Source of the DNA: Isoetes taiwanensis
Taxonomy: Eukaryota > Streptophyta > Lycopodiopsida > Isoetales > Isoetaceae
DNA: 64,000 nucleotides
NCBI GenBank assembly: GCA_021234155.1
Contig: JAJEKV010000003.1
Coordinates: 20,010,386-20,074,385, forward strand
Direction of reading: 5' to 3'
Of the stretch, positions 8,329 through 36,515 are shown piece after piece; the stretch's first letter is position 1, and each line of letters opens with the position of its first letter. The notes beneath the pieces were generated by a model. It did not search any database and was not told the DNA's origin. It saw only the letters and a program-made list of their open reading frames with translations. The position numbers were made by a program, and so were the translations under genes.

Positions 8329-8979
8329 ACTCAGAAAGTTAGCGTCACACTGTATAAATTTATACGACAGAAGAGCAGACGGTAAAAGTTTACACAGGGA
8401 TGGTATAAGGTTATACAGAGAAGGCAAACTTGAAGCGGCAGACTGTATAAATTTATACAGAGATGGTATAAATTTATACGGAGGAGGGCAACATAGAAAA
8501 GAAACGGTATAAATTTATACAAAAACTCACAGACAGTTGTATTGAAAACTTTATGGAGAAGCGCTATACGAAACGGCACTTAGCAGAGGTACTTAAGCCC
8601 GGCGCCGGCCACCCTATTTTCTATATACGCAGCTCGTTGTCGAAGGCGCTCGCGGTGCGGCTTATATACCCCCCCTTATTTGCTCTCTAGAACGTCTATA
8701 CGCGAGTCCATACTGTCATGGCCACGTAAGTCTACTATCCGTACTGTTTTAGTTTCTCTTTTGTTTTAATCTGTTAGAGTGTAAGCACCCACGGTATAAA
8801 TTTATACCGATATGGTTCTGGAGCGGTATAAATTTGTACCGCTCGTGCGGTATAAATTTATACCGTTCCAGAACCATTTCGGAATCTTGGTGTCTAGTGC
8901 TTAAAGAATGGTCCCGAATCTTAATATTTTCGTAATATTGTTGTGTTTTAAGCTTAAATGACATAAATAAAGTGTTAAT
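8329..8979. promoter_or_regulatory. Divergent promoter region of element A with palindrome clusters
   Basis: This 650-bp region separates the starts of the two divergent genes. It holds GTATAAATTTATAC at 8352, 8445, 8465 and 8507, an imperfect copy near 8402, and a second group of CGGTATAAATTTATACCG at 8792, 8824 (one mismatch) and 8848. The second group sits inside a larger inverted repeat (ATGGTTCTGGA near 8813 and TCCAGAACCAT near 8867). Each palindrome contains TATAAAT on both strands, so it could also serve as a TATA element. A role as binding sites for an element-encoded protein is inference. Confidence 0.6.
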
Positions 8980-10575
8980 TTGGTGTGGATTTTATGCCCT
9001 TTTAGCCTCTTTTTTTACTGTTTTTCTGTTTCAAAAAGTCGAAAAAGGTTCTGTTTCTTGTATAAAAATGGTTTTTTTTACGCTTTTTCCAGCCCTAAGA
9101 TCAAGTTTATACACAGAGGCCAATCATCAAAGGCTGCACCACCAGAGCCACAGACTTATGAACTAAAAGAACAGACTTGGTACGTCCACAGGGGCGCAAG
9201 AGAGAGCAAACCCACTGAGGCGTACCTTTACTTGTGCCATCAATCAGGGAAGGGCAAGTACAAGTCTGATGATTATTACCCTGCTGGCGAAATTATAAGC
9301 CTTGTTACTACAGAGAACGATGACGAAGTTTTGATGAAGTGCAATCATGACAAGGGGGAGGTCTACTATGTTCTGAATACTAGAATGCTTAGAATAAGCA
9401 TGTGCAAGCCCAAAGACGTGTATGATTACATTGCGGACAATTACAAGAACGGCTTTGTAAGTTATTCTTAGTTGCTTTCGTGTATAAATTTATACCGTCA
9501 TTCTCTTAACTTAACCGCATGACGGGGACATAGTAGAAATTTTGATGTCAGTAGTGCTGTGTGAAGAAAAGGTGTTGGTCAAGGGTCTATGGTTACCCCG
9601 TACTATCGAAGAGGAAGAGAAGGACGAGGAAGTAGTAGAAGAAGAGGAAGAGGAGGAACCAATGGTAACAAAGGGAAAGGGTAGGAAGCATTCCACGGTA
9701 GTAGATACAATGACCTCCTACCAAAAAAAACTAGAACCACAAAGTCCTTGACTATAGAGGAGTCAGCAGAAGCTCTTCAGAAGGCTCCTGGAGCAGATAT
9801 TGTTGTGAAGCCCGCAGATAAGTCAAGTGCTATTCTAAAACGGGTTAATGAAACTAAACTGCTCAAACAAACTATTTCTTTGACATTGAGCACTATAAAA
9901 AGGCCGCCTAAGAATGAAGATGGGGTCGAGTGCTTGGTCCGAGGAAGGTGACGCTTGCACATGTGGCTATACTGAAGCAAAGAATGAGAAGAAATCCTCA
10001 TGCCCATGTGTCGCCACTAGTTGTAATGGTGGACAGGAGTCAGTGATTATAAAAAGGCTGACTTTGAAGATTACACATAATTATGTACTTGGAGGCACAC
10101 ATAGTTATAAAGCACGGAAAGAACTTTCAAAGGAAGAAACCCGTAATGAAGTTTGGAAGACCGTAGAAGCACATATCTACGTGGGAGTCACAGACGAAGA
10201 AGCAAAGGTCATTGCCGTGAGTCATAATCTCGACAACGACTTCAGACTAAAAATGAGCCTGATAGACAAGATCCGCTTCATGCACAGGGAATACATAGAG
10301 TTCAAACAAATGTATGGGGAGGACTTCAAAAAACAAAAAAACAAACTCCAAGAACTTCGAGAAGCTTGTGTCACAGAGTGCTGCCTCAGCTATGATTCAG
10401 ACAAGAAGCCCATAATGGCTGTGAAGCAGTACGACAATCACTTCCAGCTTGCTTTCAGAGATGGTCAAGTAAGTAAAAGCTTTAATTTAGTCCTCTGTAG
10501 TATGATTAGCTTAGCTTAATTTGTGTATTAACACCGAACATTGTATATTAGTACCAACTAAGGAAGACCAGTCAA

Positions 10576-10788
10576 GGTATAAATTTATACCGTGACTGGT
10601 CGCGGTATAAATTTATACCGTGCCTGGTCGCGGTATAAATTTATACCCTGGCTAGTCACGGTATAAATTTATACCCTGAGCAGGCACGGTATAAATTTAT
10701 ACCGCATACCTTGCACGGTATAAATTTATACCGTGACTAGCCAGGGTATAAATTTATACCGCGACCAGGCACGGTATAAATTTATACC
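10576..10788. repeat. Eight GGTATAAATTTATACC palindromes in an intron, folding as a long hairpin
   Basis: Perfect 16-bp palindromes begin at 10576, 10604, 10632, 10660, 10688, 10717, 10745 and 10773, so the period is 28 (once 29) bp. The 12-bp spacers are variants of CGTGACTGGTCG. Units 2-4 with their spacers are the reverse complement of units 6-8, so the whole array is also a palindrome centred near unit 5. It lies in the intron between the ParB exon and the linker exon (donor just before 10468). Confidence 0.95.
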
Positions 10789-11856
10789 GTGCCTGGTCTT
10801 GCGTGTGCAATTAGACAGTATACTTTGTACGCCATTCAACACTAAACTACTTGTGTTCGATCATTCACAGGTGTGGGATCTTCAAGAAAGAATATTTTGC
10901 ATGTTCGAAGATGGTGAGCTGAAAGAACAATCCAGCTCTGCCTGAAAAAAACCAAAAAAAGGTGGTGAAGCAAAACAAAAAAACATGAGCATTGTACCCT
11001 GGACGCAGCTACAGGGTTTAAAAAGGAAGGAAATTTTTGTAAGACTATTAGAAAAAGTTGTGGCCAAGGAATTTACTCTAGACGAAATGGCCAAAGAAGC
11101 TAAGACGTAAGCAACATTTCCCATGTCGTCTTCTTTTTTTCCTAGTTTTGTCTGACATTTTTTCCCTCTGCAGTCAGAAAGACATTGTCACCTGCCAGGC
11201 AGAGTTAATGAAGCAACTAAACCTGGAGGCCTGGGAGGAGTGCAAGGCTTTGTATCCATCTTCTACTACAGATAGTATTATCAGAGAGCACGCTGTTAAC
11301 TTTAGTGGCTGGGTAAGTTTTTCAGAAAATACGTTTTGTTTTCGTGCCTTTGTCTCACAGTTTTCTTACAGAACAAGAAGAAAGGGCTACTGACAGGATT
11401 TTTAAAACTGGTTCGTAGGGCTAAGGAGGAGAGGCAGAGACTAAAGGCACTTGAGCAGGGAAAAGAAGTCGGCACAAGCAGTTTTGACACCAGTTATGAA
11501 CGGTTCACAACATTCGGTCAAGACTGCTTGTACAGGGTTGTTCATGGGGATTGCAAGAGGCTGGGAACTCTTTTGGACAAGCAAAATTATACATTGTGTA
11601 TTGCAGACATTCCATACGGGTTCAAAATTAAGGATAGCTCTTTCAACGAGGAAGCCTTCATGCACGTGCAAGTCCGTGCTTTTTTGGACGGCCTGAAGGA
11701 AATCACGACATCTGAAAACTGGAGGGTCATCATTTTTCATTCCGACCTGCAGACGATGTCGGTGCTTAAGCCAATGGGAGCTGTCTGTAACGCGGGCTTT
11801 GAAAACTGCGTATGGTAAGATTTGAATTTATTGCTTTTCTATTTACTTAACACCAC

Positions 11857-11986
11857 GGTATAAATTTATACCTCAGTCGCCTCGTGGTATAAATTTATAC
11901 AGCAAGGCAACCTTCGTATAAATTTATACGGCACGGCAATGTGGTATAAGTTTATACAGCAAGGCAATGGTGGTATAAATTTATAC
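11857..11986. repeat. Five GTATAAATTTATAC palindromes in the last intron of the element A methyltransferase gene
   Basis: Copies begin at 11858, 11887, 11916, 11944 (one mismatch) and 11973, a period of about 29 bp. Spacers are of the form AGCAAGGCAA. They sit in the intron between the exon with motif IV and the exon with motif I. Confidence 0.9.
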
Positions 11987-12729
11987 TGCCACACCACTGA
12001 ACTAACTTATTTTGTTCGTTTTCTTTCTACCAATTTTTAATTGCTTTTTTGTTTGGCAGGCTAAAAACAAATGTCAAAGGACATGGTGGTGGTCCGCTTA
12101 GTAAAAGTGCTTTGAACATTTCCATATAGGTTTTACTGGTAGCGGACACCAAAAAACCATGGTTCATTTCAATACGCATAAAATGAGAAGAGTCCACCCC
12201 GCAACGCCTTCGGTTTCCTACTGTTGCGCAAAAAATTAAGAGACCCACGGCGACAAGGCTGTGGTATCTCATTACCGGAAGCCCGCGGCTAATTAATAAC
12301 TTAATAAATGGTTTTTCGCCGGGAGACTGGATTCTAGATGCATTTTCTCGCTCGGGCACCACGGTGATTTCGCCCTTAGGGCGCAATGTTGTCTCCGTCA
12401 ACATAGACCCGGACAAAATAAGTTTCGTCAGGACAAGGATAAGCTCTTGTGAATCCTTTCCTGATGAAAACGAGGAACTGGGAGCAAAGAACGGTGCTGG
12501 CGATGTTAAAGGCACATACACAGAAATCCAGCCTCCACTTACGGGAAGAAGAGATGAGGAGGTGGAGTTTGTCGACCTGGAGCCTGTGGTGCCTAAGCCC
12601 GAGAAACAGCCTGTACCTGTGCCATTGGAATCAGAAGCAGGCGTCTCTGCTATCATACCATCACAAGAGTCAGATCCTAAGGGGTACGAGAGTCCTGTGG
12701 ACTGGGAAGACCCACCTCCTCCACCAGTT

Positions 12730-12743
12730 GTATAAATTTATAC
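12730..12743. repeat. Palindrome overlapping the methyltransferase stop codon
   Basis: The last codons are GTT GTA TAA; the GTA TAA is the left half of GTATAAATTTATAC. The same arrangement is found in element C near 36460, so it is conserved between the two copies. Confidence 0.85.
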
Positions 12744-13160
12744 AGTCAAGATTACAAACTAATTTTCATTGTAAACTATGTGCTAAGAAATATAACATAT
12801 TTTGATGATGATTTTTAATCTGAAAGCTTTGTCTCTTCAACAATGCTTAATTAGAACAACTCTTTTTTTCTCCATGATTTCACACTCTTTGTCTTTCCTA
12901 TGTTTAATTTTCTTAGTACTTATATTAAGCTTGCAAAAAGACAAACTATATTTCCTTCTATTTTCAACAATAAATACTTATTCAGTTTTTAAATTTAATG
13001 TCTCCCTCCTCAAACCAAGCTTTTTTTTCTTTGCCCTTTTTAAAAAATGAAAAGGCTTCAAAAATGTTGCTTTTTTGGGGGTATTTCGAATGCTAATTGC
13101 TTAACAATCTATTTTGCTCCCTATTTTGTCTGGTTTTTTCAAGTTTCCAATTTTTATAAA

Positions 13161-13213
13161 GGAATCTTTCAAACGCACTTCTTAAATAAGTGCGTTTCAT
13201 TTTAAACCTTGTT
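13161..13213. repeat. Right end of element A with terminal hairpin
   Basis: Inside the right terminus AAACGCACTT (13171-13180) pairs with AAGTGCGTTT (13188-13197) across a 7-base loop. The outer arm is part of the terminal inverted repeat. GGAATCTTTC precedes it. The left end has the GCAC motif as direct repeats instead, so the two ends are not equivalent. Confidence 0.8.
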
Positions 13214-13217
13214 TTGG

Positions 13218-15213: not shown

Positions 15214-15225
15214 GGTCAGTCGGTG

Positions 15226-15643: not shown

Positions 15644-16749
15644 ACACCCATGCTAGTCCACCAAGACTAACGTCCAAGACCACTCCCCCGAGCTACCATA
15701 TTCATAACAGACACCTATGGTGAAGAACCAAGGGAAGGACATTCATTGAACATCATACAAGTATGGCAAGGAGGTTGAGATTCAAGCAAGAAGAATTGAG
15801 CTTAAATTTGAAGACCCTTATGCTAGAGCTTGGAAGACCCCTCAAGATTCATTGGTATGTGGCTAGATCCAAGTTATTTTGGCATGAATCCTATTTCCCA
15901 ATGCTTCTTTCGTGTTCCTACCATCTTGATCTTATCCAGGAAACACCCTTCATGCTTCATAATTCCTATTTCCAAGCTCCATCACCATATTCCCTAGCCA
16001 AAGTTGGCAAAAGTCTTTTTTTCTAGTCAAAGCACATCACACACCCATCATTCATCCACTACCTTGAGAAAATGCAAAAAACTTCACCAAAGTTGGCTAT
16101 TCTTAAGGTTTAAGACTATTTTCTCCAAACAATTTTCTCCAAACAATTTTGAAAAAAGCAAATTTTCCAAGTCATTGCACAAAGTTCTGATGTGTATGTG
16201 CACAAGTGCCAAATATGATGCCAAATCATCCACATCATCTTCAAAATTTCAAATATCATCCACATCAACACCCAAGTACATCCACATCACCATACACATG
16301 TCATCCACCTCATCACCACTTCACAAAAAGTTTTGACTAGAAAAAGTCATTTTGCCACCTTACTTGCCACATCATCACCTCACTGTGCCATGCCCATTTG
16401 CCACATCACTCCATAAACTTGCCATCTCATCAAAATTAGCCTCATTTTTAACCAAAAATCAAGATGCTCTTTTTTGCAAAAAGATTCTTCCATCCTGTAG
16501 AGCATCAAAAAATATTCCTTGTGGAAAAAAGAATTTTTGAAAAAGACCTTGTTATTACCTTCATATTTCATTTTTTGAAAACCGTGCCAAATTTTGACAA
16601 AAAAAATTCCTACCCCCCCCCCCCAACCCTACCGGGGCCTAGTCACTCTGTCCCCCAATCATCCTCTGCCACATGGTAAAACCGGTCGTGTGGAGTGGCA
16701 ACGGGCCATTACCCATGTGGAGGCAATGCGTAATATTAATAATCCACGT

Positions 16750-18564
16750 GGATTATTCTTTATATAACCAGAGCTTCTTTTTTGAATCAAGCTTGTGGGA
16801 TATTTCTTGGTTTTTTAAAGAACCCTAACACCGAGAAGGCCAAGAAATGGTTTTTTTGTTGGATTGTGAGCCCTAATCATAACTTGAAGGGGCCGAAACT
16901 CTCTAATTCATGCCAAGAAAACAAGAACACTAAAAACGAACGAAATCCATGGATCTTTGCAAGAATAGAGCAAAAACATGGTATTTTGGAAAGGGGTTTT
17001 TGTGACAGAGTTTTTCGACGGCTTTGAGCAAGAAAATTGACCTACACACCTTTGGTATTTGCCGGATTGACTTCATCTGCTTGAATCCACCTTCATTGCC
17101 TTAAGAAACATGAGTTTATGAGGCAAATCTATTGAAATATTTTGATCCTGTACCCAAGACATCAGAGCTTGGGATTGACTGAAATATTGTTGTATTATAT
17201 CTAAATGAATGAAAATCCATCCTCTTGGCAAAAGTTGCACATCTATTGCAAGCTAAGGACATCTAAGGAGTGAAAATTTGGCAAAAGAGCAAAATATGGA
17301 GGAAGAAAATTCTACTACCCTTGCAAAAAGTTGAAGTAAGTAAATTACCTTTTCAAGTTACTGTTGCATTACATAAAACAAAAGAAAGAGTAAGTTTGAG
17401 TATTTTATCTTTGCATTTGAAGTCATTAGTTTAAAGAAGATCAACTTAAAGTGGCATACATCTTGGGCATACATTAGGCACTCAAGAGTCAAACACGTGT
17501 CTAACATATCGTGCGTATATCTATCCACTAAAAAACATAAAAAAAGTTCTCAGAGAGTAGGAATTCCAAAATCCAATAGATCAGAATCTATGACAATTGG
17601 CCATTGAAGAAATATTTTATGGAAGCAAACTAAAAATCTTTTGGCCAAATCTCTTTGATGGACCTCTTGTGCAGTCTTGTCAGAGTTGTTAGAAGGATTC
17701 AGAAGTGAAAATAGGCTAAGCCATTTGTTCTGTCATACTTTATTGTAGGCCTGGCCCCCCTTAATTGAAGGTCAAATCAATCGACATCGAATGAAGCTCT
17801 TGAAATTGCCACCAACATCTATCTCCATTATAATCTTTAACCTCCCCACCCAATTGCAGGTGGCTTCCTGCCGATTATGATCGGCAACACTTGATTGAAA
17901 CTCCATCGTGAATATAAAAATCAAATTATATCAAAATTCAACTGCAGAAAGTGATCAAATGAAGAAGCCAATTGACTAGATTTACATAAATGGCAATGAC
18001 AATTCCCATTGCGCATCCTATTTTTGTTACATCATATTCTTGATCAATGCTTTGATCTAAGAGATAGGTCGTACATGATATGTAGTGAGACTGCAAGAAA
18101 GCTCATATCAGGTCAACTTTAAGTCTCTAAAGCTTGTTCTATTACAGATTTGTGTTGCCGTTGGCAGAATTTTCTTGTTCTTTGGACAAATTGGAAGTGC
18201 AAAATCTTACTAAACTGGAAAGACATGAGAAATGAGGACTGTTTTCCAGGCTAAGAATGAATATTAGCTATGTTTTCACTAGTAGCCTATATTATACATA
18301 TCTAGGAGTATCTATTGTGTTTTGCTGCTAAATTGTGAAGCTAGAATATAGAGGTTATGATATATGCAGTTAACTCTTAGGTCTTACATCATAGGCATCT
18401 TATATTATAATGTTTTGTAATGGACCACGCCCTAATTTGAAGGGCTAAGATTGTCTTTGCCTAATCTAAAGGCCCGGATTTGCTCTAGGGTTCGCGAGGG
18501 CAGCTGTGGTTGAGATTTGATGCTCTAGAGTTCACAAGGGCAACCTTCGATGAAAACTAGAGGC
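16750..18564. other. Non-coding part of duplicated block, copy 1
   Basis: Only short frames are present. A CCACGTGGATTATTC box and TATATAA near 16745-16765 resemble a plant promoter (G-box-like CACGTG followed by a TATA box) about 1.8 kb upstream of the TPR/J pseudogene. No further motif is recognised. Confidence 0.3.
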
Positions 18565-19400
18565 ATGGCTTATGCGGATTATTTGTATCAAAAGCTTGAA
18601 TCTAAGCTGCAGAAAGGGGATTGCAAGGCAGAGTATGTGGGTCTTTGTTAGAAATAGCAGAGGATCACACGCATGAATCTGCGCAACAATTTTTACAAGA
18701 AATCAAGGATTTGAGAGTTAAAATTCAAGTCAAGCTCCCGCTCTGCAAGGCTATGGAGGCCAGAGAAGCAGGGGATTTGATTCTAGAAAAGGCGAAATGC
18801 TAAGGAGCAAATAATACTGCCAGATCAGAGCTTTTCCTCTCCGCCATAGACAAATTCAAAGAATCGGAAGCCCTGTGCAGAAAAAACAGAGATTATCACG
18901 CCCAAGCTCTATCTCTGCTCAGCATCGCCCATGTCTACAACGGATTGTCCATGGACAAGCAAGCAGAAACCCACTACCAGAGTTGCATCGCCATAGCTGT
19001 GAATAATCTGGGCGATAAATCTCCGGAGCCCAAATGGGTGAAGGATGCAAAAATCAATCTGCAGCGAATTGTGCAGAAAAGAGGAAATCGAAGGGCGAAG
19101 GAAAACGATCAAAAAGAAAACATGGTTCAGGGTTTTGTATTGCCTGCCGAAGCTAAGGAGGTCCAAAGAGCCCATGCAGCTATGGCGCCTAAAGCTTTTC
19201 TCAGGTATTTGTATTCAAATCATCCCCCAAGAAAAACCAGTGGAGAATTGGGCATCGCCCCAAAGGTTGCTCTGAAAAATGCCTACCGGAAGGCCATATC
19301 TCAGTACCATCCGGATCATTACTCTGACACATGAGGCTGGAAAATCGTTGCCGAGGAGATCACAAAATATTTGGTCATGAATTATAACCGGCTTCAGTGA
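18565..19400 (+). pseudogene. TPR/J-domain (DnaJ-like) protein, copy 1, broken
   Basis: The reading starts MAYADYLYQKLESKLQKG and shifts frame near 18635 into a helical region (SAQQFLQEIKDLRVKIQ) with a TAA at 18801-18803 that is a Leu codon in copy 2. It continues through ALSLLSIAHVYNGLSMDKQA and ETHYQSCIAIAVNNLG, the spacing of a TPR-like hairpin, to KNAYRKAISQYHPDHYS, the C-terminal part of a J domain including the HPD-like HPDH. A one-base shift near 19332 moves the end, WKIVAEEITKYL, into another frame with its stop at 19398-19400. J domains stimulate Hsp70 ATPase through the HPD loop. No introns are seen, so it may be a retrocopy. It is non-functional as read. Confidence 0.65.
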
Positions 19401-20277
19401 AGAACAGGGGTTTTTGTTTTTCTCAGATATTAACCATGGGCACTTTGACATGCTAATGCTTTGTTTCTTGAATGCGATCTTTAGCAAAGCCGGCTTCAGC
19501 AAACTCTGTCTTTCCAGTGTCGATTTCAGCCAGTGTCTTTGTTTTTGTCGATTTGAATGGTCAATATCCAGCCATGGGGTTAAGCCCTCTTAACCGGCAG
19601 GCTTTCAGATCAGCGCAATCCTGGCCATTGATTGCTGCTCTGTGATAGGGCATAACAGGCAAGTGGAAACAGGGAAGAAGAGCAGCAGTGTTGCAACTTT
19701 GCCCTGGATTCAGCTTCGGGAGGATTTTTTGCCCTGGATTCAGCTTCGGATGCTGATAATCCAGGCTAGGACTTGATAACCGAGCTCTGGACTCCTGATA
19801 ATCGATCTTTGGCCCTCCGAAGCTGTGATAACCGAGCTATGGAAGCTCAGATCCTAGGTATGGATGAGGCAGCTTGCCTGCCCGGTTCCGGGCGAGCCCA
19901 TTTATCTGAGGTAATGGGCGAGCAGGGGTGTTTATCCCCTTCTTAACCAGCAGGCTTTGGGATCCAACCGTTGCCCACCGTTGATTGCAGCCCTGTGATA
20001 GGCCATAACAGGCACCCAACCCACTTCGCAGGGATGAAGAGGCAGCTTAGAACGCGGAAACAGGCAGCATCAATCTTTGTTTGCAGCTTTCAGCATTGGA
20101 TTCAGCCTCGGAGCTGATAACTTAGCTCTGGAAGGTGCCGAACCTATGATAATCTAGCTGTGGGAGCTGATAATCATGCTATGGGAGATGATAATCGAGC
20201 TGTGGGTGCAGGAATGGGTGAGGAATCTTGCCTGCCGGTTAAAGGGGATAAACACCCCTGCTTGCCCCTTACCACTG

Positions 20278-20483
20278 TTGGGCAAATTCCGGGGTAGAGA
20301 AGGTTTGTTCCGGTTGAAACTAAGAATTTCCGGTTGAGTTAGCGCATTGCAGGAAAAATTCCGGTAGATTTTTATACATATTTGTATAAGAGTAATACAA
20401 ATTTCCGATTGGGAACTGAAAATATTTGGCTATTTGATGAGAGAGTAGGAAAATTTCCGATTGGGTTTAAAAACTTTGCCCAA
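20278..20483. mobile_element. 206-bp MITE-like insertion with 5-bp duplication CACTG
   Basis: It begins TTGGGCAAATTCCGG and ends TTTGCCCAA, giving a 9-bp terminal inverted repeat. It is flanked on both sides by CACTG (20273-20277 and 20484-20488). The interior repeats TTCCGGTTGA / TTTCCGATTGGG motifs and has no coding capacity. It sits inside one arm of a larger foldback. A related copy is in the second duplicate near 59688-59876. Confidence 0.65.
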
Positions 20484-20488
20484 CACTG

Positions 20489-20550
20489 CCCCTTACAGCA
20501 GATAAACGGGCTCGCCCCTCCGGGCTCGCCCATTTATCTGCTGTAAGGGG
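20489..20550. repeat. 29-bp-arm perfect or near-perfect hairpin
   Basis: The left arm 20489-20517 starts CCCCTTACAGCAGATAAA; the right arm 20522-20550 ends TTTATCTGCTGTAAGGGG, with a 4-base loop. It is the centre of a larger foldback whose outer arms are GGGGATAAACACCCCTGC (20243) and GCAGGGGTGTTTATTCCC (20553). A second such foldback, half deleted here, lies near 19880-19945 and is complete in copy 2 at about 59240-59345. Confidence 0.8.
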
Positions 20551-22050
20551 CTCGCAGGGGTGTTTATTCCCTTCTTCTATTCAGGCTTCCGTTGGAGGAT
20601 TTGTTCGGCATCATTGTGGCGGCGGTCTCTGGTTGCGATTATGGCATCGTAGCCCATTTCTTCTACATCACCAAGAGGTTGGCTATGGCGTTTCTTCTTC
20701 TTTTACTGACCCCAGAAACTGTCTCAAAAATCATCTAAAAAGATTCGGCAGTCTGCTTGCTTTTCAAAAACTCTGTTTAGTCCTTTTATCTCTATTTAGC
20801 TCTACCTTGGCATACAGAATGGAATCTCTTTTGAATTCTTTTACCTCCGTTTACTTCTACCTCTCTACCTCTGTTTAGTTTCACAACATATAATGGAATC
20901 GATTTAAGATTATATCATTTCGGCAAAGAAAGGAGCAGAAGGAAACAAAGGAATCAGAGGATTTGGCAGCCGAATACAGAGGATTTGGCAGCCAAATACA
21001 GATCAAAGATATTAATTATACAGATCGAATTTATTCACAGATCATGAGGTTTTCTAGAGTATTGAAGCAGGGCAGCTAACCTAGGATTGATACTCTATTC
21101 TTATAAAACCGTTCCTACATGGCCGGAAGAAAAAAAAGCAAGGCTCATAACGCTTAGATGCTACTACAAAGAAGCATGGGAAATCTAAATATGGAAGGAT
21201 GCTAAACAATAATGCAAACATCAAGCGCAACTCACGAACATTTAAAGCGAAAATACTCAGGTTTCAGTTGTTTTGTCTCTATGAATTGTTTTATGAATGC
21301 TTATAATTTATGATTATCTAGCTTACAACAAAGGGTTTGCTTTATTGGAAATTAAAGTTGGATTCATGTGTTGTATTGTAGGAAATAAAGATATGCGCAA
21401 ATGGAATAAAGATATGCGCAAATGGATTTCCGAGATTTCTGGTATATAAAAGTCTGCTTGCATACGCAAATATGAGTGATCCTTGACATTATGATCATGT
21501 TCTTTATGTATTGACAGAGGCATTATCTGACAGGCTTACCTATTAGAAGCAATAGAATTGAAAGTAGCATGCGACTCAAGAACTGAAAAACAATGCATCA
21601 CACATTGCCATAATATAGAATATGAGGTTTGACATTCTCCTTGATCTGTTTGGCAGACTGCTTGCTTTAGATTTGTAATGCATGCTTTTTTTTCCCATCG
21701 GTGTGATTCATTTTTTGTTTCTAATGCATATGTTTTATGTGTATTGCCATTGCAGACAAAAGAAGGGGAGCACATCTCTCCATTTGCTATGTTAGAAGAG
21801 CCGATATCTACAAAAAGCTTCCAGGATTTCGTGAACATAGGAGATCCAGGCAATGGGACATTTCATAATTCAGGTCTTTGATATGTTTGAGCAGATGCAA
21901 CAATCCATCCAAATATTGATGTCTCTCTTCCATTTCTTACAACACTTAAAGCAAATGATGCAGTTCTATTCTAGCTTATTTTCATTCATGTGTAGAAACT
22001 GCTAGATGGTTGATGAAATACCATGTGTTTTACTAAATGTGCTCAAAAAT

Positions 22051-23081: not shown

Positions 23082-23283
23082 TTTTCCATAATACAATTAC
23101 GTCATGGACACTGACTCTTTCAACATCCTTTCTAATTTTTGAAGAAAATCTCAAAAGTAGTTTGGTTGTATGATCAAAAATCCCATTTTTCACTATTGAG
23201 GTATGCCAATCGGGATGGCGGCGGGGGCTGCAAGGCAGCAGACTGTGGCGACCACCTGAGCGGCTAGGGATCCGGTAAGCAGC

Positions 23284-26338: not shown

Positions 26339-26807
26339 CATTAACAAAGTTTAAATTGAAACGCACGAATTTGCTCCAAACGCACTTCAAAAGGAATCTT
26401 TAAAAGATTCCCTAAAATTCCCCAAAAAAGGTCCATTTTCACGATCTATTTGTGACAAGCGTGACATTTTGGACATTTTAGGTACCCTTTTTGAGGGGGT
26501 AATTGAACTTAGCTTACATGCGAAATTGTTTATTGCCCCGTTTTGGCCCCCTAGTTTGGTATGAAAAATACTAACAAATCTAAATACAATAAAAAATTTG
26601 ACATTGAAACAAATAGCAATTCCACTAGAGCAACAAAAGCATATAATATTCAAAGTTTTTAAAACCATTACAAATTTTTAAACAAAATTGTAAAAAATGT
26701 AATACATTTGACATTCTGAACAAAGTTATATTTTGCGGCTTTAATTTCCCCCACATTTGTTGGACGATATGAATTTGAAGCATAGGTGAGCTCAAGAGGC
26801 ATATAAA

Positions 26808-27182
26808 AATATAAATTTATACCACGTGAGCTCAAGCAGTGCACGGAGAGACAACTCGAGCGGTATAAATTTATACCGCCTGTAAGCTCAAGCGGTATAA
26901 ATTTATACCATCACCCCACAGGAAAAGAGCGGGAGCAGTATAAATTTATACCGACATTTTTTTACACGGGAAGCCACGATATAAATTTATACCGCGAGCT
27001 CTCTTTAGAAACGTTTTGCTACAACTCTAGTATGCTATAACACACAAAAAAATCATTTATATAAAACTATCTTCATGGTTATAACGTGACATTGCATAGA
27101 TATAACATGCCATGGGTTGGTTAAAACAAGGCAAAATATGTTCTACATCTCGTTTTCAGCTTGACGGTATAAATCTATACCG
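26808..27182. repeat. A-type palindromes in the left part of element C
   Basis: Copies of GTATAAATTTATAC, some with one mismatch in the flanking pair, begin near 26809, 26861, 26894, 26938 and 26979; a variant, GGTATAAATCTATACC, lies near 27166. Between them the word GAGCTCAAG recurs. They occupy the place of the divergent promoter of element A. Confidence 0.85.
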
Positions 27183-27879
27183 AGACTAGGAAATGTTTTT
27201 GTGAAGGAAGCTTTGGGATTTCTATATTCTAACGAATGCAGGAGTTTGTTGATGCTGGAGTTTCTTAGAGCATGAGTTTCTTCTGAAAGTGGAAGAAAAA
27301 AACATTTAGGGTTTTGTTGATGCGGCCAGTTTAGGGTTCGTGCATATGCATATGAAGGACGGAGGCGCTGGATCAGAATGAGAGATGGAGTAGCAAAGTA
27401 ATGTTGCATGCTCCTAGATCTTCTCATAGCTACTAAACGTTCCTTTTCATGCCTAGAAATCTTGCATCAGTTTATACGAGTTTTGCATCTTGGCTCTGTT
27501 TTGGCACAACCCTGAGTTTAGTTCCTGCCCATTCATGGATCTCTTGTTATATAGAGAAGAAATAACATTAGAATAGCCGAAGATTCACAAAAGGCCACTG
27601 GAAATTTGAATAGTTGGAACGCTGCGCAGCCATGTGTTAAGGTGCTGCTCTACGGATCAATGATGCTTCAGGAATAGGAGGAGCTTTTTCTTGTTTTTAT
27701 GCTGCTCATTTTGGAGACTATTGCTAGTATATTCTGCGGGGCTGAGTTCACATTTTGGCAGTCGCTGGAGAAGAGCTCTTCTAAGACAACTATCCACCAT
27801 TGCCTGAGAAGAGCCTTTTTCTACTTAAAGGTAAAAAAAAGTCGGATGTTTTTTTTGTAGTGCACTGTCCTCTGAAGTT

Positions 27880-28302
27880 TAGGCATATGCAGAACCTGTA
27901 GAAGTAGCAGTTGTGGAAGTAGCTCCTGTTGAAGCAGCTGTGGAAGGTGCACAAGCTCCTGTTGAAGCACTTGTCCATTGAAGAGCCTGCCCAAGTGACA
28001 CCAAAGGAAAACGGTGCAGCAGTTGCTGCGTTTTTGTATTGGGTCCCATAGACCGATTGGTCTCCGTGGACGATAAAAGTACCTTCCTTCCTTCCTTCCT
28101 CTGCTCCTAGACCTTTGTCTCCCTATGCTAGGGTATGTCTCTTAAACTTGCTCTACATATGTCTAGATTAAGATCATTTTGTTTCTATACTTGCACCAAA
28201 TCTGTCTAGATTAAGATCATTTTGAATCTCATTAACCAACTTTGGTATGCAGTATCCTGAGTTGAAACCCCCATCTTCGCCAACTCCTTCCAGGCCTTGC
28301 TG
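27880..28302 (+). pseudogene. Captured exons with FNR-anchor motif (TROL/TIC62-like C-terminus)
   Basis: A Val/Ala/Glu-rich stretch (VEVAVVEVAPVEAAVEG, about 27895-27960) is followed near 28105-28132 by APRPLSPYAR at a GT donor. After an AG acceptor at 28252, YPELKPPSSPTPSRP (28253-28300) ends in a stop. Joined in phase, the two match the PLSPY-x2-Y-x-DLKPP-x-SP-x-P signature by which the thylakoid proteins TROL and TIC62 bind ferredoxin-NADP reductase. The upstream reading has stops, so this is a fragment. It lies between the ends of element C, so it was captured, or C formed around it. A (CCTT)n tract near 28083 adjoins the first exon, and an 18-bp inverted repeat (GCTGAGATGAGAACTTTG) follows the second. 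Confidence 0.6.
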
Positions 28303-28960
28303 AGATGAGAACTTTGCTCGAGGTAAATTTTTACAAAGTTCTCATCTCAGCTCTGCTCCATTAGTTCTTGCAGTAGGAGAGAGATTCCATTGAGAAATGG
28401 ATCAACAAAAAATAGCTTTAACTTTTCAGGAGAAAGACCTTGGCAGCGTAAGTGAGATTGGCTTTTTGAAGATTCGAGAAGGTTCCACTTATAACAAGAT
28501 TGCATTTGAAACGGGAGCAAATCATTGAAACGGGAGCAAAAGGAATATTCCTTAAAGATTTCCTATTTTTTTTTTTTGCAAAAAATGGCTAAAAATGAGG
28601 TGGTAAAAAAAAAAGGGGGCAGAAAAATGTATTTTGACCCCCCAAAATCACCAATCTTTTTCTCCAAACAGAGAATTGTCTATGTGAAAGTGACACTTTT
28701 TTTTGGAATTATAATTTGCCTGAATTGTCTTTTTGGAGTAAACCTCTAATTTAAGAGAACACAAATTTTGACCAAAAATCGAAGTGAAGTTTACAGCAGA
28801 AATAGTAGTATTTTCAAAATTGAAGATAAAATCTTCATATTCACATTCAAAATTTATTTCTTTTTTCCTAAGACTCAGTTATGTGCAAAAGTGTGAGGAG
28901 TGATAAGAGAGGGATCCAAGACATCTTAAATTGCTTTCGTTTATGCCATCATCGTCGGTT

Positions 28961-31261
28961 TCACTTCTTTTCAGCATCACTTGAGGAAGTGCTTGAGTTA
29001 TCTTCCTCATCACTATCAACCGACGGTGAAGCATTCCCAACCTCTTCTTCATCTTCTTCTTCGTAGTTACAAGCCTTCTTAATCAAGTTGATTGTTCTCT
29101 GGCGTAAACGATTGTCTGATTTCAATTTGAAATCATAGCACAGAATACTCACTTGTCGTAAGTCTAGCTCATCCGCATCCAACTTTCTTGGCTTTTTGCC
29201 CTTTCCTTGACTTCTCATTTCTAGCTCATACCTACCTTCAAAAGCATTTTCTGAACGTGTAGCAAGCCAATGAATCTTGAGTTTAGTCACCATGCCTTCC
29301 TCTTTGATTGTGTCAAGTACTTTGGCTATCCAAAAAGGTCTCCCCTTGTCATCCTCCTCAGTCGGAAGAGCAATCAACATACCTTTAGTAATTTCTGTGA
29401 CATTACCTGTAGGCTCATTCCTGCGTCTTGGACCGAGGTACATGACCCGGTCCTCATCTTCTGTCTTTGCGGTTTTGCTCTTTGCGCAGCAATGCTTTGA
29501 CTTTTGCACGGTTACGTGGTTGGTGGGAAGCATTAGGCCACTTAAAAGGTTCTTGCAACTGCCTCAGAGCTAGGTTCTGAATCACAGTCTTTTGTTCTAG
29601 AAAGAAGCCTCTCCACCACATTTGATCTTGTTCAGTGAAGTACTTAAAACCCGTGGAAATTCCATTTTCAATGGATTTCAAGGAAGTGACCTTCTCTCAG
29701 CTGCTTGTTGGTCACGGTGTCTACCAAGCTTCTGTTGCACAATGTCTGTTGAAGGAAGCAGGTCAAAACAATTACATGATGCAAGTACGAGAATGAAGAA
29801 CTTAAACTTACTTTTTTCGAGCTCTGTCCTTGCAGTTTCTTTTTACTCTTGATTACAAGACACGTTGAGCACCACGGACATTACAGTGTCTTGAGGAATT
29901 TTTACAAGGCCAAATTCAGTTTTCCACAATCTAGTGAAATGTGAATAAGAGATATGCTGAGATTGACTGCATGTCTCTTTGTATTCTTTGAAAACATCTT
30001 TTTTTGTGATGTTATCTGTCAAGTGATACATATTGTTGTTTGGCAATTTTTCACACGTTTCTCTGAAGTATTTCTCCATCCATGCCACAACAGCTAGGGC
30101 ATGCATTGTTACAATTCTTCCAGGCCCACAGTGGTCATCAATGCAAGGGTTTTTGTCTAATCTTTTTATGTATTGAGACATTCGGAGGAACCCAGCGGTG
30201 GCGACCATGAAGCATTTTTGACACACTTCTTGGCGATTGATATAGTGCAAGAAGTTGTGCCATCGGTCTTACATGATAAGCCAAGTAGGCATTCTGTTCT
30301 GAAATTGTCATAGAATTGTAATGGTCTCTAATTGCACGAAGTTTAGCCATGTTGAATTTGCTAATGCATCCCAACGAACAGCATGTAGCTCTGAGAATTT
30401 TTCTCATTTTCTGCTCGTCCATCAGATTTCTTCTTCTTATGGAAGAACATGCTCTCAAGCTGAAATCTACTTTGAATTTCTTAGAAGATTGGTTAGAGAA
30501 CATATAATCTCGTTGTTCCTTGTCAGGGTCTTCATCCTCTGATGAGAGTTCCACTCTAGGAGTGACCTCCTCTTCTCTTAGTGGTGTGTTTCTGGAGGAA
30601 AATAAACCACGTGACACAGTACCCAGAAAATTCGGAGGGACAGTGTTAAATGTAGGTGATTGGCCATAGGATGATGTTGCTTGATTGTGTTGGCTAGGTG
30701 TCGTGTCAAACATTGCTCTTATTGATGTTTGAAATTCTGCAAACCCGTGTGTCACAACATTTATGGGAGGAGGTGGGGACCCTACATTGCCTACAACAGC
30801 GTCTTCATTTGTGCACAAGTCATGGTGAGAAAAGTCATGGAGAATTTCACATTCTTGTGGGCGTGTTGCAGACCTTGTACTTGTTCCTGCTACAAATAGT
30901 GGGGGCAGTCTTTGTCGAGACATCTGTCGTCTTTGCAAAGGCATCTGCGCAGCTTTCGGTGATGGTAAAAAGGAGGTGGTAGCCCTCAGGTATGCAGTGG
31001 AGATGGAACGAAGGGAGAAGGCAACCTACACTTGAAAGGGCTCGGGGAGGGTTGGAAAGGTGGTGGCAGTCTACTATGTGATGGACTTGGAGAATCGTCA
31101 AGGAGTAACAAGGATGTTGTAGAGGCAGGAGATGAGGAATCCTGGGCACCAGGCAAAAACACATGCTCATTGGGCGTTTCCTCTGAAGTAGAGGAACTCG
31201 GTGCCACAAAAGGTGGTGGAAGTCTGTTCTGGATGCGATTAACCATCTTCAAACACTTCAA
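28961..31261 (-). pseudogene. Transposase-like protein of element B, catalytic core deleted
   Basis: Homologous along its length to the element A protein: an N-terminal proline-rich region with RLPPPF units (31261-30986, continuing in another frame from 30944); CSLGCISKFNMAKLRAIRDHY; RQEVCQKCFMVATAGFLRMS; NMYHLTDNITKKDVFKEYK; and a GT-AG intron at 29746-29811. After QQKLGRHRDQQAAERR the text jumps straight to LKSIENGISTGFKYFTEQDQ, so the exon that in A holds the Asp/Asp/His-Asp motifs is missing. The C-terminal domain (DRVMYLGP..KGMLIALP..PFWIAKVL..LKIHW) and the acidic Ser/Glu tail are complete, ending at 28961. Frames also change near 30950 and 30200. Catalysis is not possible; DNA binding might persist. 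Confidence 0.78.
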
Positions 31262-31846
31262 CTAGAAGAGAGACGGAAGCAGCTTTTGCACGTTTGCTAT
31301 TCGAGAATACGAAGTGTCAAGCCAAGGAGAAGTCTGCTATTCCGGAATACAAGTTAGCACACATTTTGAACCAAACGTATTCCGGTATACATAGAAATGA
31401 ACATGTGTCTGAAGTAGACCTTTAAAAAGGAAATTTGTGGCGCTCATTCGTGTATTCCGAATTCGTTGCTCCAGGCGCTCCGATTTAGCGCCTTCAAAAA
31501 CTTCTGCTCGACCTTATTCCGTTTTACATAGCACGCAGCATGGAGAGGTAAGGGAAAAAAGTACAATGTACGGGCAGATTCTAGAAATGTGGTTTGGGCG
31601 GAGGCCGAAGTGTATTCCGGAATACACTTTGGCCTTCCGCGCTCAACAAAAGTGTATTCCGGAATACACTTTGGCCTAAAGCGCTAGGCCAAAGTGTATT
31701 CTGGAATACACTTTGGCCTTCAGCTCAAACTACTTTTGCTACAAAAATATTAAATTTAGTGCATTTTTAAGCGCTTTAGCAGTAAAATGTAGATGTTTTT
31801 ATTCCGGAATAGACTTTCTAGTTTACTTTGCTTTAACTAAAACAGT
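31262..31846. promoter_or_regulatory. Divergent promoter region of element B with its own palindrome
   Basis: TGTATTCCGGAATACA occurs at 31611 and 31653, with a one-mismatch copy at 31695. These three are embedded in a longer palindrome, GGCCAAAG-core-CTTTGGCC. Diverged copies lie at 31297, 31337, 31377 and 31798. Position and clustering match those of the A-type palindromes between the divergent genes of element A. Confidence 0.65.
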
Positions 31847-34800
31847 TTGTTACTCGCTTGTTGCAGTCAGGAACATGGGGTCCAAAAACAGAAACAAAAC
31901 ATCAAAATCACCACAAAGAAACGCCCGCCACCAAAAGACCAAGAGACGACTGCGATACAAGTGTACGAGAATTTTCAAACGCAGTGGTACGTGACGAGAG
32001 GTTTCGCAGGAAAGTACAGCAATGTCACTTTCCTGTACGTCTGTCGTAGCCCTGGGCAAAAACGGTACGACGAGTCTGAGTTTCCGTGCATGGGATCCAT
32101 ACAGCACGCGGAGCCAGCAGCTGGGCAGAGCAAACAAGCAAGACTTTCTATTAAGACTTCACAAGGCTACTTTGTTCTTGATGTAGCATTCTTTAAGCTT
32201 TCAAACGTGCATCCTACACGGCTTTACAATTACATTGCCCACTACATAAATAAGCTGCCAATGTCAACAATCATTAGGACGGTTTCAAGCAGCAGAAGTG
32301 AAGCACTGGACTACAGTGCTTCTGAAGTAGAAGAAGGTGGAGATGATGAGGAGGAGGAACCTGGGACTGATGAGGACATTGCAAATTCGGCTGAGTCCGA
32401 ACCTGAAGAACCCCCACCACCACCACCAAAGAAGCAAAGACAAACTGTGGCTGCTAAGGAGCCCAAGAAAAAAAAGACCGCGGTACTTGCCATTGAAGAT
32501 GCACCCCAGGCAACAGGGAAAAAAACAAAGGGGAAGGCCAAGGCCCCAGGGGTTGCAATAAAAGAAAAAAAAATAGACAAGACGGTTGAAAGGATGGAAG
32601 AAATTAATAAAATAAATATGTTCAAGGAGTAATTTATCTTCCTGTCACCTGCATGAAGCTGCCACCTAAGGACGACACAGGAGAGAGACCACTACAGGTG
32701 AGAAACATTTATGCGGATCACGTTAGAAATTTAAAAGACAGGACAAGGAGTAACCCAAATGCACATGTTGCTCCAATAGTTGTTCTTGTCGACAGAAGCC
32801 AGTGCATGGACCCGGCAAATTATGACAGAGAGAATGCAGATCATTACACACATTATGTGCTGGGTGGAAACCATAGCTTCAAAGCTCGGAGGCAACTTTT
32901 TAAAGAAAAAGAAAATCCAAGATACCTTTCCGTCCTCTGTGCAGTGTATTGTGGCCTGACTGATGAAGAGGCGAAAATAGTGGCCAAAACACACAATGCA
33001 GATAATGAGTACAAACTCAAAATGAGTTTTGTAGATAAAATTAGATTCATGCACAGAGAGTACCTAATATTTAAAGAGAAATATGGAGAAGATCTTAAGA
33101 AGCCAGGGCCATCATTGGAGCTTAAGGAGGCGTGCGCAATAGAGTGCTGCCTAAAGTATGATGAAGCAAACAAGAGGCACTCTCTGATCAGCCACGACAA
33201 TTGGTTTCAACTGGCCTTCAGGGATGGCAGGGTAAGCACATCTGTATTCTGGAATAGCCCTCGCACTTTAGTGTCAGGCCAAAGTGTATTCTGGAATACA
33301 CTTTGGCCTTCAGTGCTAGGACAAAGTGTATTCCGGAATACACTTTATACACTTCGGCCTTTGTTTCATTTTTATTGTAGCTCATTTCTAAAAGATTTTC
33401 TCCAATGTAACTTACAATATGTTGTTTGCTATAGATATGGGACCTGCAAAATGAAATATTCACAGCATTTGAAAGAGGGGAATTAAAGAGCAAAGGTAAA
33501 GCAGCAGAGAAGAAAAAGGGCACAGACGTGCCAAAAAAAGAAATGACTATCACAGTCTGGAGGGAGATGCAGGGTTTCACGGACACAACAATCTTAGAAA
33601 TGTTACTCCAGAAAGTAGTGGACAAGGAGTTTTCCTTAGAAGAGATGTCAAAAGAACTGCACAAGTAAGCGTTCATGTCTTGTGCTTCATACATTCGGAT
33701 TCCCTATCTGTTTTGTATTCCGGAATAAGTAATGTGCTTCATATTTTCTGTTTGTCAGCCAAAAAAACGTCATTGCATGCCAAACATGCTTGATGGAGCA
33801 GTTAAACGTAGAAACCTGGGAAAGGTGTAAGGAGCTGTACCCTCTGGCAACTTCAGACGAGCGTATTGTACAATATGCTCCTAATTTTGAAGGATGGGTA
33901 TAATGCTTTACCTCTTGGACCTTCTTTTGTGTCAACTGTTTTTACACAACTTAACTTCATTTGCAAATGCAGAACAAGAAGAAAAACAAAGATCTTCCTG
34001 AAGGTTTTATGCACCTGCTAAAGCTTGCTCGTGAGGAAAGAACCTTACCGACAGGAAGGCGGTTGTCGGTTGAACCGTCCGAGTTTGAAAAGTTTACATT
34101 ATTCGATCGGGATAATTTGTTTTCTGTTGTTCAAGGTGATCGCGCACTAAGTTGGTGGAAAGCATTAAGCCCCAATTTTACCCCGATCATTCTTTGATAT
34201 ACCTTTACGGGTTTAAGATCAAGGGCGGCCGTTATGACGACCTACCTTTTAGGAACTCTGAGTTCAATGCCTTTATTGATGGTATAAAACAAATAACAAC
34301 GGCTAAGCATTGGAGGCTGGTGGTGTTCCACTCTAGCATGCAAGCAGGGATGGTGGAAGCGCGAGCTTCAAGAATCATTTTGGATCCCCCGCTCCGGTGG
34401 CTATGAGAATTTGGTCCGTAAGAACTTATTCAAAAATACTTCTGCTTTCTTTTGCTATTCTGGAATAGTAAATTTATTTGTTAATTGCTAGATTGCTAAC
34501 TATACTTCTCTCCTAAAGGTACAAAACTAATATAACTTATCATGCTGGAGGCCCTAGATTGTTAAGCAAAGTGGAATATCTTCATGTGGCCTCTTTGGAG
34601 CTTGACGACAAAAGAACAATGGAGCACTTCAACACGCCCGGATGCTCTGATTTTTCTAATGTGTTAGAGTTTCCAGCCGTGTTTGCGGAAGTCGTAAGAC
34701 CCAAGCTAGCTTGGGGGAGAATTGTCAATCACTATCGAAGCCCCTTAAATTAATCAACCAACTTATTGACATGTTTTCACGTCAAGGATTTGGATACTTG

Positions 34801-35186
34801 ATGCTTTCTCGGGCCTGGTACAACCATTACTGCAAGACTTAAAAAGGCGAAACTGTGTAGCAGTGGATGTAGACAAGGAGGCCGTGAATTTCATTAAGAT
34901 GAGATTGGCTGCACTACCTAGCTTACCAGACGAGAATCAAGAGCTAGGTGCCAAATCCTCATCTGACTTTGCCAAAATGACATCGTCCGAAATACAGCCT
35001 TCTTTTACCAGCTCCACAGAGGATGAGGTCACTTTTGCTGAGCTGAAGGAAGTGGCTCTAGTAGTGGAAGCAGAAGACAACACTACAAAGCAAAAAGCTA
35101 AATCACCTGAGAAAGAGAAGCCTGCTAAGGAAGACGTTGCAACTACAAGCACACGCCATGGGGAGGACTACGAAGTTGATCTTTGA
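31847..35186 (+). pseudogene. ParB-like domain plus beta-type DNA methyltransferase, element B
   Basis: Exon 1 (to about 32632) holds the WYVTRGFAGKYSN domain and an acidic, Pro/Lys-rich linker. The next exon (about 32656-33231) has an intact ParB-like domain: PPKDDTGERPLQVRNIYADH, then APIVVLVDRSQ, and HYVLGGNHSFKARRQL in place of the ParB GxHR box, followed by the conserved helical segment with LKMSFVDKIRFMHREY. Linker exons at 33435-33665 and 33760-33898 follow. The methyltransferase exon from 33973 reads into DIP and YGF (motif IV, DPPY type) with two extra T's around it. After an intron come KPLKLINQLIDMFSRQG and DAFS/GPGTT (motif I) with a one-base loss between them, then AVDVDKEAVNF. 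The end is YEVDL at 35186. The three damaged spots are homopolymers, so sequencing error is possible. Confidence 0.75.
33243..33342. repeat. B-type palindromes in the intron after the ParB exon
   Basis: GTATTCTGGAATAG (33244, two mismatches), TGTATTCTGGAATACA (33295) and TGTATTCCGGAATACA (33327) lie in the intron at the same place as the eight-copy array of element A. Single diverged copies are also in later introns, at 33715 and 34455. Confidence 0.85.
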
Positions 35187-35647
35187 CTCCTTGTGAGAAA
35201 TATTTTTCAGATTGGTATCTTTTAAAACTGATATTAAAATATTTATTGATTTTAATATTATTTATTCCCATCAATTTTCCTATTTCCTTAGTCTTGCTTG
35301 TCTACACTACACAATCAACTGTAAATTTGGCCCTTTTCCACCAACAGCTGACAGATTATTCTAGTGTTATAATTAATTTTGCCTTAAAAAATGATGTATT
35401 TAAAATTTCTAATTCATGTACTATTATTATTTCATTTAAACTAAGATGTTTTTTGTTGTCTTCATTTCATGGATTGCAAAGTCAACTGTAAATTTTGCTC
35501 TTTTAGGCTATGATATTTCATCAAATGTAAATGTACACTTGCTGAGAGGTTAAAAAGCAAGAAAAAAAAATTTTTAAGCTCTCAAAATACTTTGACTCGG
35601 CCAAAAAGTTCATTTCTGGGAGGATGCCATGTTTTTTTGAGGGAATC

Positions 35648-35695
35648 TTTGAAACGGGAGTTGTGCAACACTCCTGTTTCAAATGCAACCTTGTT
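35648..35695. repeat. Right end of element B with terminal hairpin
   Basis: TTTGAAACGGGAG (35648-35660) pairs with CTCCTGTTTCAAA (35671-35683), one mismatch, inside the right terminus. It is the counterpart of the hairpin at the right end of elements A and C although the sequence differs. Confidence 0.75.
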
Positions 35696-36426
35696 TTATA
35701 CAGACATGCGCAAGGAGATTGAGAACGATGTAACTATGTTGTTACTTTCAAAAACTCTAAAGTTACTTAAGGTGTAATAATGGTCTCAATCCTAGTGTAA
35801 ACCTTCATCTCAGCTGTGGCACAATGGTACAATCCAGGACGAGAAGTTTCGCATATGCTAGCCAAAAGGAAGCATGGCCCATCTGCAAAAGTGTTACTGC
35901 CATGTGTTATGTGCTTATTCAAGGTTCTGCAACACTGCAACTGCCAAGGAGTTGGCACTAATTGAAAACGATCACATGTTCTTTTGATTCAAAGTAATAT
36001 GTGTGTTGGGGTTTGTAAGAAAAGGTTAAGGTTCCTTTCTAATAAAAACTACAGAAGATTTAATAGGGTTCTTCCATTGTCGTTTCTTGGTAAGCTCTTT
36101 TTGTCGTCAAGTAAACTTTTTTTGCATGTCTTGATTGTCAATTTGATAATTTTGTGTAAACTTTGGTCTTTCAAGCTTTGATTGTGATTGGATTGACCAA
36201 ATTCGAATTTATCATTAAGTTCTGCAGTTAATTGGTAGCTAGAAAATATTCATATTAAACTTGAAGATTTAATCAAATTCAAGATGTCTTTCACAAGCTC
36301 CAAAAAGTGCTAAATACAATAAGCAGGCTGAAGTACTTCAAATTATCAAACAAATGCATACAGAAGGAATGCATACAGAAGAACGACGCTGGAGACATCA
36401 AGGAAAACAAAATGTCAAGGTGATGA

Positions 36427-36515
36427 GAGTCTTGTGGACTGGGTGGACCCACCACCTGTGGTATAAATTTATACCGATGGGTTTTCATTTCAACCTGTCG
36501 GTATAAATTTATACC
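36427..36515 (+). pseudogene. Remnant of A-type methyltransferase C-terminus and two palindromes in element C
   Basis: ESLVDWVDPPPVV followed by TAA parallels the end of the element A protein (SPVDWEDPPPPPVV). GGTATAAATTTATACC overlaps the stop codon, and a second copy lies near 36500. Nothing else of the gene is left upstream. Confidence 0.7.

Follow-up and report, generated by a model that had tools for sequence, protein, structure and literature searches.

Class-specific palindromes in promoters and introns follow protein clade in DUF7869 DNA transposons of Isoetes taiwanensis

What reads the short palindromes that recur within individual DNA transposons of the lycophyte Isoetes taiwanensis, and what does it mean that they differ from one element to the next? 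The question is raised by a 64,000-nucleotide stretch of contig JAJEKV010000003.1 (assembly GCA_021234155.1, positions 20,010,386 to 20,074,385), here called the window. The frame GTAT-N6-ATAC occurs 34 times in it against 0.59 expected, a count that none of 100 shuffles reached. All 34 sites fall in three DNA transposons, A, C and B, and none lies outside them. Element A (4923–13213, delimited by sequence reading and end repeats) holds 22 sites between 8352 and 12743, of which 20 are exact copies of GTATAAATTTATAC. Element C (26343–37017, delimited in the same way) is a non-autonomous derivative of class A that retains class A ends and palindromes, has no recognised coding sequence and is split by B, which it hosts as an insertion; five of its six sites are exact copies of GTATAAATTTATAC. 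Element B (28493–35695, from sequence reading) is the class B transposon nested in C and has six sites between 31377 and 33341, three of them exact copies of GTATTCCGGAATAC. The palindromes are therefore element-specific, as a preliminary description of this DNA had proposed, with one core in A and C and another in B. Contrary to its other statement, not all of them are perfect: 6 of the 34 deviate (for example GTATAAGGTTATAC and GTATTCTGGAATAC).

The sites can be placed relative to two divergent genes. The transposase gene of A lies on the minus strand, with its predicted ATG near 8328 and a DUF7869 (PF25273) domain at 6421–7002 (minus strand, E 7.3e-39). Five palindromes (four exact) lie in the predicted 5' leader of this gene (8352–8520). 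The others are distributed along the plus-strand gene, which encodes an N-terminal domain (X), a ParB-like domain and a methyltransferase. Two lie in its predicted intron 1 (8794–8863), one in the predicted intron that follows the exon of the N-terminal domain (9482–9495), eight at a spacing of 28–29 bp in the predicted intron after the ParB-like exon (10577–10787) and five (four exact) in the predicted intron between methyltransferase exons (11858–11986). The last overlaps the stop codon of the methyltransferase gene in its final exon (12730–12743). In B, four palindromes (two exact), three of them 42 bp apart, occupy the divergent promoter or intron 1 region (31377–31709), and two (one exact), also 42 bp apart, occupy the predicted intron after the ParB-like exon (33286–33341). 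C carries four (three exact) in its left part (26863–27180) and two in its right part (36461–36514). Sites near the 3' end, claimed earlier for each element, are present in A (12730) and C (36461 and 36501) but not in B, where the last site is at 33328–33341.

We searched the genome (1,658,258,908 bases) for the same palindromes, with the reversed sequence as control. The A palindrome occurs 12,556 times (17 in the control) and the B palindrome 3,720 times (none in the control). The degenerate GTAT-N6-ATAC frame shows no genome-wide excess, with 40,900 occurrences against 40,899 in the control, a near-equality that is itself odd. The enrichment thus belongs to particular cores and not to the frame. 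An open palindrome search of 20 loci chosen by DUF7869 brought up two further classes beside A and B sites: D, CTATGCGCGCATAG, with 1,551 copies against none in the control, and E, GTATGAATTCATAC, with a modest excess of 64 against 11. The outer bases of class D are CTAT...ATAG, so the GTAT/ATAC arms do not extend to this third clade. With the D and E sites included, the constant part is TAT-N6-ATA, and the first base and the core are set per class. Recombined palindromes are rare, CTATAAATTTATAG occurring 6 times (its own control, 17) and GTATGCGCGCATAC once (control, 0). The A and E palindromes differ at one half-site position, and these two classes are also the closest in protein (ParB 66%).

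Does the site class follow the protein? DUF7869 gave 9,907 first-look candidates in the genome, of which 150 were scored, and was found in none of 14 control genomes. Relatives of the A and B ParB-like exons gave 2,527 and 2,760 first-look candidates, with 150 scored for each. The 20 loci were picked by eye from the 150 scored DUF7869 candidates, avoiding loci in the A and B ParB lists. ParB matches contributed a further eight A-like and seven B-like loci, palindromes contributed one D locus and two E loci, and extensions were added. The 38 fetched loci together with window elements A, B and C make 41 elements, which divide by site into 18 A, 10 B, 5 D, 4 E and 4 without sites. Protein class was assigned as the best match to class seeds, and only elements with sites were counted. 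Site class equals protein class for domain X in 35 of 35 elements, for the ParB segment in 31 of 31, for the transposase N-terminal segment in 36 of 36 and for the DDE domain in 33 of 33; without the four self-matching seeds per segment, n is 31, 27, 32 and 29, respectively. In the first 20 loci, 16 have sites and are concordant in every scorable segment. Allowing up to two mismatches, no cross-class site occurs among the A, B and D elements of the 41, and the E elements carry five E sites, one A site and intermediates. The predicted correlation of core with protein clade therefore has no exception among the elements examined, and cores varying freely within one clade were not seen. In the four site-less loci (L003, L008, L013 and L018), similarity to full elements ends, or jumps, before the promoter.

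All four classes are splits in the X tree (30 rows) and the ParB tree (27 rows), with weak support for A (0.76 and 0.71). With all rows included, neither A nor E forms a split in the tree of the transposase N-terminal segment, and in the DDE tree neither A nor B does. When palindrome-less copies are removed, the four classes are splits in both transposase trees, with weak support for E in the reduced N-terminal tree (0.05, or 0.26 without L037) and for A in the reduced DDE tree (0.45, or 0.91 without L037). Loci L005, L006 and L010, which have A sites and a seemingly more distant transposase, were considered as recombinants that might single out the binder and were rejected: every segment recovered from them scores as class A, and the reading frames of L005 and L010 are broken. 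No inter-class recombinant was found among the elements examined. Copies of class B fall into two sharply different groups by X and by the transposase N-terminal segment (L014, L030, L033 and L034 versus the others), a gap absent from the ParB identities, and recombination inside the element is a possible source of this mismatch.

Among sites at up to two mismatches, a choice with a built-in bias toward the core, the seven half-site positions carry 0.87–2.0 bits. Flanking positions reach no more than 0.72 bits for classes A, D and E and as much as 1.22 bits for B. A comparison that depends less on mismatch-based site choice is provided by 11 aligned class A promoters, in which identity is 0.951 at site columns (98 columns), 0.836 in the 7-bp flanks (84 columns) and 0.875 elsewhere (548 columns). 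No site among 463 overlaps a seed match to X, ParB, post-ParB or transposase sequence, against 157.6 expected if sites were uniform, the methyltransferase exons having been left out of the coding seeds. Sites were placed by landmark in the 31 elements that have the full set. Most fall in the interval from the transposase N-terminal segment to X (A 183, B 44, D 18, E 14) or downstream of the point where the ParB exon begins (A 71, B 37, D 7, E 12). Sites between X and ParB are confined to class A (15), and D has six within the transposase gene. Of the 43 single mismatches counted in class B, 24 change C to T in the central CpG. Such changes are expected where a host methylates CG, and they would point to methylation of these sites by the host. 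This decay of the B core is seen at 31696–31709, at 33286–33299 and at class B loci. Spacings were also compared with multiples of 10.5 bp (distinct spacings in 11 chosen elements), giving p = 0.019 overall and 0.189 for A, 0.035 for B, 0.377 for D and 0.005 for E, the last from four spacings; this is suggestive of helical phasing at most.

Isolated palindromes were taken from the first 50 listed for each of A, B and D, giving two A, four B and six of nine D sites. Eight of the 12 lie in or beside clear same-class sequence (82–2,314 bits). The other four (L050, L057, L059 and L060) have more same-class sites at up to two mismatches and just 51–66 bits of same-class similarity, and may be decayed or non-autonomous copies. 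At L057, whose four sites are all D, the D match (50.9 bits) is slightly outscored by a match of 34 bp to a locus of class B (53.6 bits).

Which element protein could read the sites? The divergent plus-strand gene, whose exon joins were predicted by eye, has a tiny first exon followed by domain X, the ParB-like domain and a beta-class (N6/N4) methyltransferase. In A, the methyltransferase is predicted from two plus-strand exons, one with a motif IV-like DIPY (11495–11815) and one with a motif I-like AFSRSGTT (12193–12489; N6_N4_Mtase E 0.003, below cut-off). We take DIPY and AFSxSGTT to be motifs IV and I of a beta-class enzyme. DIPY is invariant in five of five methyltransferase sequences, and its exon precedes the one with AFSxSGTT, giving the order motif IV–motif I, both in the window A copy and in the class D locus L039. 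This locus matches N6_N4_Mtase (PF01555) at E 3.7e-12, with 47.1 bits against a cut-off of 26.7. Its best NCBIfam match is the adenine-specific CcrM model (E 8.7e-8), and it also matches PHROG 67 (DNA methyltransferase). The window A copy reaches 18 bits, below the cut-off of 26.7, and the window B fragment, whose methyltransferase exon reads as degenerate, gives no match. Judged by these motifs and matches, the divergent gene includes a beta-class amino DNA methyltransferase.

The ParB-like exons lie at 10061–10489 in A (part of the exon, with family matches in relatives) and 32647–33231 in B, both on the plus strand. Across the family, ParB-like segments match PHROG 1033 (best E 2.7e-6, 6 of 17 members) and TIGR03764 in NCBIfam (E 1.6e-4), with no match to a Pfam ParB model. 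Read by eye, most rows have GG-x-H-[ST]-[YF]-KA where ParB proteins carry GERR, the motif for binding cytidine triphosphate. A search for the origin of the ParB part returned 21 and 62 pattern matches in viral_contigs and genome_contigs, none of them confirmed by tblastn. Profile searches of PDB gave nothing meaningful for ParB (E 0.0054, DHFR-thymidylate synthase), the methyltransferase exon (0.071) or X (0.14).

Domain X is beta-rich and fast-evolving (A, 9148–9456, plus strand, mean predicted local distance difference test (pLDDT) score of the model 83.2; B, 31985–32254, plus strand). Identity between class representatives is 19–31% for X, 47–66% for ParB, 31–67% for the transposase N-terminal segment and 66–80% for the DDE domain. 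The median ratio of nonsynonymous to synonymous substitution rates (dN/dS) in classes A and B, computed on 3 to 51 pairs whose dS ranged from 0.05 to 1.5, is 0.17–0.22 for X, 0.10 for ParB in both A (12 pairs) and B (3 pairs), 0.18–0.33 for the transposase N-terminal segment and 0.07–0.11 for DDE. Identity of X to its class seed drops to 47% in A, 43% in B and 41% in D with the core unchanged. Because X diverges by up to 59% within a class whose core stays constant, it is unlikely to read the core, and we disfavour it as the reader. Its best structural look-alike is the second half of the DNMT1 RFTS (Z 4.3, 3.9 Å over 70 residues), a weak likeness of a commonly seen level. A Foldseek search with the X model reached a best E of just 0.47. 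When X was compared by profile with both RFD domains encoded by the MET1-like gene of the host, the likeness was not supported (probability 0.1), and it is a lead at most.

Several features of the sites bear on a model. Their perfect dyad symmetry suggests a homodimer, and the clade-private cores suggest that the reader is encoded by the element. ParB proteins bind palindromic sites, which makes the ParB part the best candidate for the binder. Element C, which keeps its palindromes without recognised coding sequence, fits an effect in trans. The placement in the shared control region and in introns, like that of VANC targets as described in PMC5735166, suggests activation or protection. With about even confidence, we read the palindromes as class-specific operator- or parS-like sites of an element-encoded homodimer, most likely the ParB-methyltransferase, serving clade-specific activation or anti-silencing. 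The plus-strand product, comprising X, the ParB-like domain and the methyltransferase, would be the most likely binder of the palindrome of its own class. Through the sites in the transposase leader, intron 1 and downstream introns, it would coat its own control regions. Such coating might hold off host silencing so that both genes stay active, or tune their dose, with an effect confined to copies of its own class and excluding the others. The dimeric protein first proposed, with a core specificity that changes along with it, agrees with these data in that the core follows the clade and the dyad fits a homodimer; the identity of the binder belongs, with binding, methylation activity and anti-silencing, to the steps that we infer beyond the sequence facts.

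Some observations weigh against this model. Every protein segment tracks site class, so that concordance singles out no binder, and common descent alone yields some concordance. Eighteen of the 38 fetched element loci were selected by ParB or palindrome matches, and many copies are broken, window B among them. The ParB matches are weak, the NCBIfam match falling far below its own cut-off; the ParB-like structure model is poor (mean pLDDT 53.6), and a fold search with this poor model returned no match. Downstream of the ParB-like domain, where one would expect a helix-turn-helix, no family of this kind appeared in the Pfam, PHROGs and NCBIfam results for a spliced 318-residue B segment.

Other readers and functions were weighed on the same evidence. 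The N-terminal part of the transposase may bind the palindromes, aiding transposition and regulating its own promoter in the manner of TnpA of Spm. This segment tracks site class in 36 of 36 elements and differs strongly between classes, and element C has sites despite its lack of recognised coding sequence. We nevertheless consider it unlikely, since in A, B and C of the window the sites lie in the leader, introns and 3' part, the terminal repeats having none, and many are in introns of the other gene. Somewhat less likely still, the element's own methyltransferase may act on the palindromes, so that each class would put an amino-methyl mark on the control regions of its own copies, one that blocks or competes with silencing or labels self. 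A beta-class enzyme is encoded, the best NCBIfam match of L039 is to an adenine-specific model, and the adenines of the TAT/ATA arms are the only amino-methylatable bases at a common place in all four consensus sites. A specificity of 14 bp is, however, long for a methyltransferase alone, motif IV is DIPY and not the usual DPPY, and the exon in window B is degenerate.

If the sites were instead negative operators, the protein would repress both genes at high copy number, as the ParB relative KorB represses through palindromic operators. The sites do adjoin both divergent start regions, but many lie far downstream in introns, and we regard repression as improbable. That the arrays reflect neutral tandem-repeat growth, or sites of a host transcription factor, with the class link due to common descent alone, is highly improbable. 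The arrays are tandem, and the classes are clades for which descent gives some concordance. However, in class A promoters the sites show higher conservation than the sequence beside them, an unchanged core coexists with up to 59% difference in X inside one class, and we would not expect one host factor to recognise all four cores.

We return to the ParB-methyltransferase as candidate reader for a wider and more doubtful proposal. Tentatively, a DNA transposon lineage may have adopted a bacterial-type ParB-methyltransferase as a self/non-self system, which would read a clade-private palindrome, coat or amino-methylate the control regions and block silencing. New clades would then arise by joint change of site and reader, and class E could represent an intermediate, being one base per half-site away from A and carrying mixed sites. 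If true, transposons would provide a second example, independent of VANC and built from other proteins, of clade-private anti-silencing or self-recognition. The genome would offer four site classes, three with thousands of copies, in which the joint change of a regulator and its site specificity becomes directly testable. It would also point to a possible amino-methyltransferase system (N6-methyladenine or N4-methylcytosine) in a plant whose genome also contains genes of MET1-like and DRM-like type. The gene that we take to be DRM-like encodes a methyltransferase whose motifs are in rearranged order, and the one that we take to be MET1-like has a pair of RFD domains. Two MET1-like genes, each with two RFD domains and with identical scores, are found at two places (L064–L067), reflecting either a recent duplication or uncollapsed haplotypes. 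A literature search of partial coverage, in which some papers were judged by title, found nothing on DUF7869 or on eukaryotic transposons bearing ParB or methyltransferase domains, and a search of likewise partial coverage found nothing on palindromic family-specific anti-silencing or transposon-encoded methyltransferases.

The ends of the window elements define the transposon type further. The terminal inverted repeats of A, B and C begin with AACAA, and each element is flanked by a perfect 4-bp target duplication: TTGG for A (4919–4922 and 13214–13217), CATT for C (26339–26342 and 37018–37021) and TTAT for B (28489–28492 and 35696–35699). C matches A over about 350 bp at the left end, 93 bp at the right end and short stretches around the palindromes. 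The window copy of B gave no DDE domain match. Subterminal inverted repeats, AAACGCACTT...AAGTGCGTTT at the right ends of A and C (13167–13213 and 36970–37017) and AAACGGGAG...CTCCTGTTT at the right end of B (35640–35680), could form hairpins. The window also contains two copies of another repeat of about 5.5–6 kb (16132–21941 and 55529–61036), about 39 kb apart, whose listed direct blocks are mostly 96–100% identical, with two at 91–92%.

How do these elements compare with known systems? As in maize Spm/CACTA, where TnpA acts through many short sites on its own promoter, an element protein would here act through repeated short sites. The sites here are not subterminal, the target duplication is 4 bp and not 3 bp, and CACTA termini are not present in A, B or C, all of which have AACAA. 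Bacterial ParB/parS and KorB/operator systems likewise pair a ParB-like domain with palindromes present in several to many copies per element. The present elements differ from them in being eukaryotic transposons, with a methyltransferase apparently in the same gene and with their palindromes placed in promoters and introns. In prokaryotic and phage ParB-methyltransferase fusions, too, both parts occur in one gene, as predicted here, but the present gene has an extra N-terminal variable domain, introns and a DUF7869 transposon around it. The closest parallel in logic is VANC of the Arabidopsis VANDAL elements, which are Mutator-like elements (MULEs). According to PMC5735166 and PMC10398659, family-specific motifs accumulate in noncoding tandem repeats upstream and in introns, VANDAL families differ in motif (YAGTATTAY versus AGTTGTCC/AGTTGTAC), VANC21 motifs are arrayed in one orientation, and the VANC protein has conserved and highly variable regions and a demonstrated hypomethylation activity. 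The comparison with VANC made in the preliminary description stands for this logic, as short family-specific motifs lie in noncoding tandem repeats of their own element here too. It does not extend to the proteins: the transposase is of another type, and Pfam scans of the X, ParB and methyltransferase exons gave no VANC-type match, no direct comparison with a VANC sequence having been made. As the A transposase exon matches no MULE model in a Pfam scan, the elements would work like VANC/VANDAL without being members. Set against the VANDAL elements, they have perfect dyads, a DUF7869 transposase and 4-bp target duplications, and their ParB-like methyltransferase is the candidate to take the place of VANC as reader.

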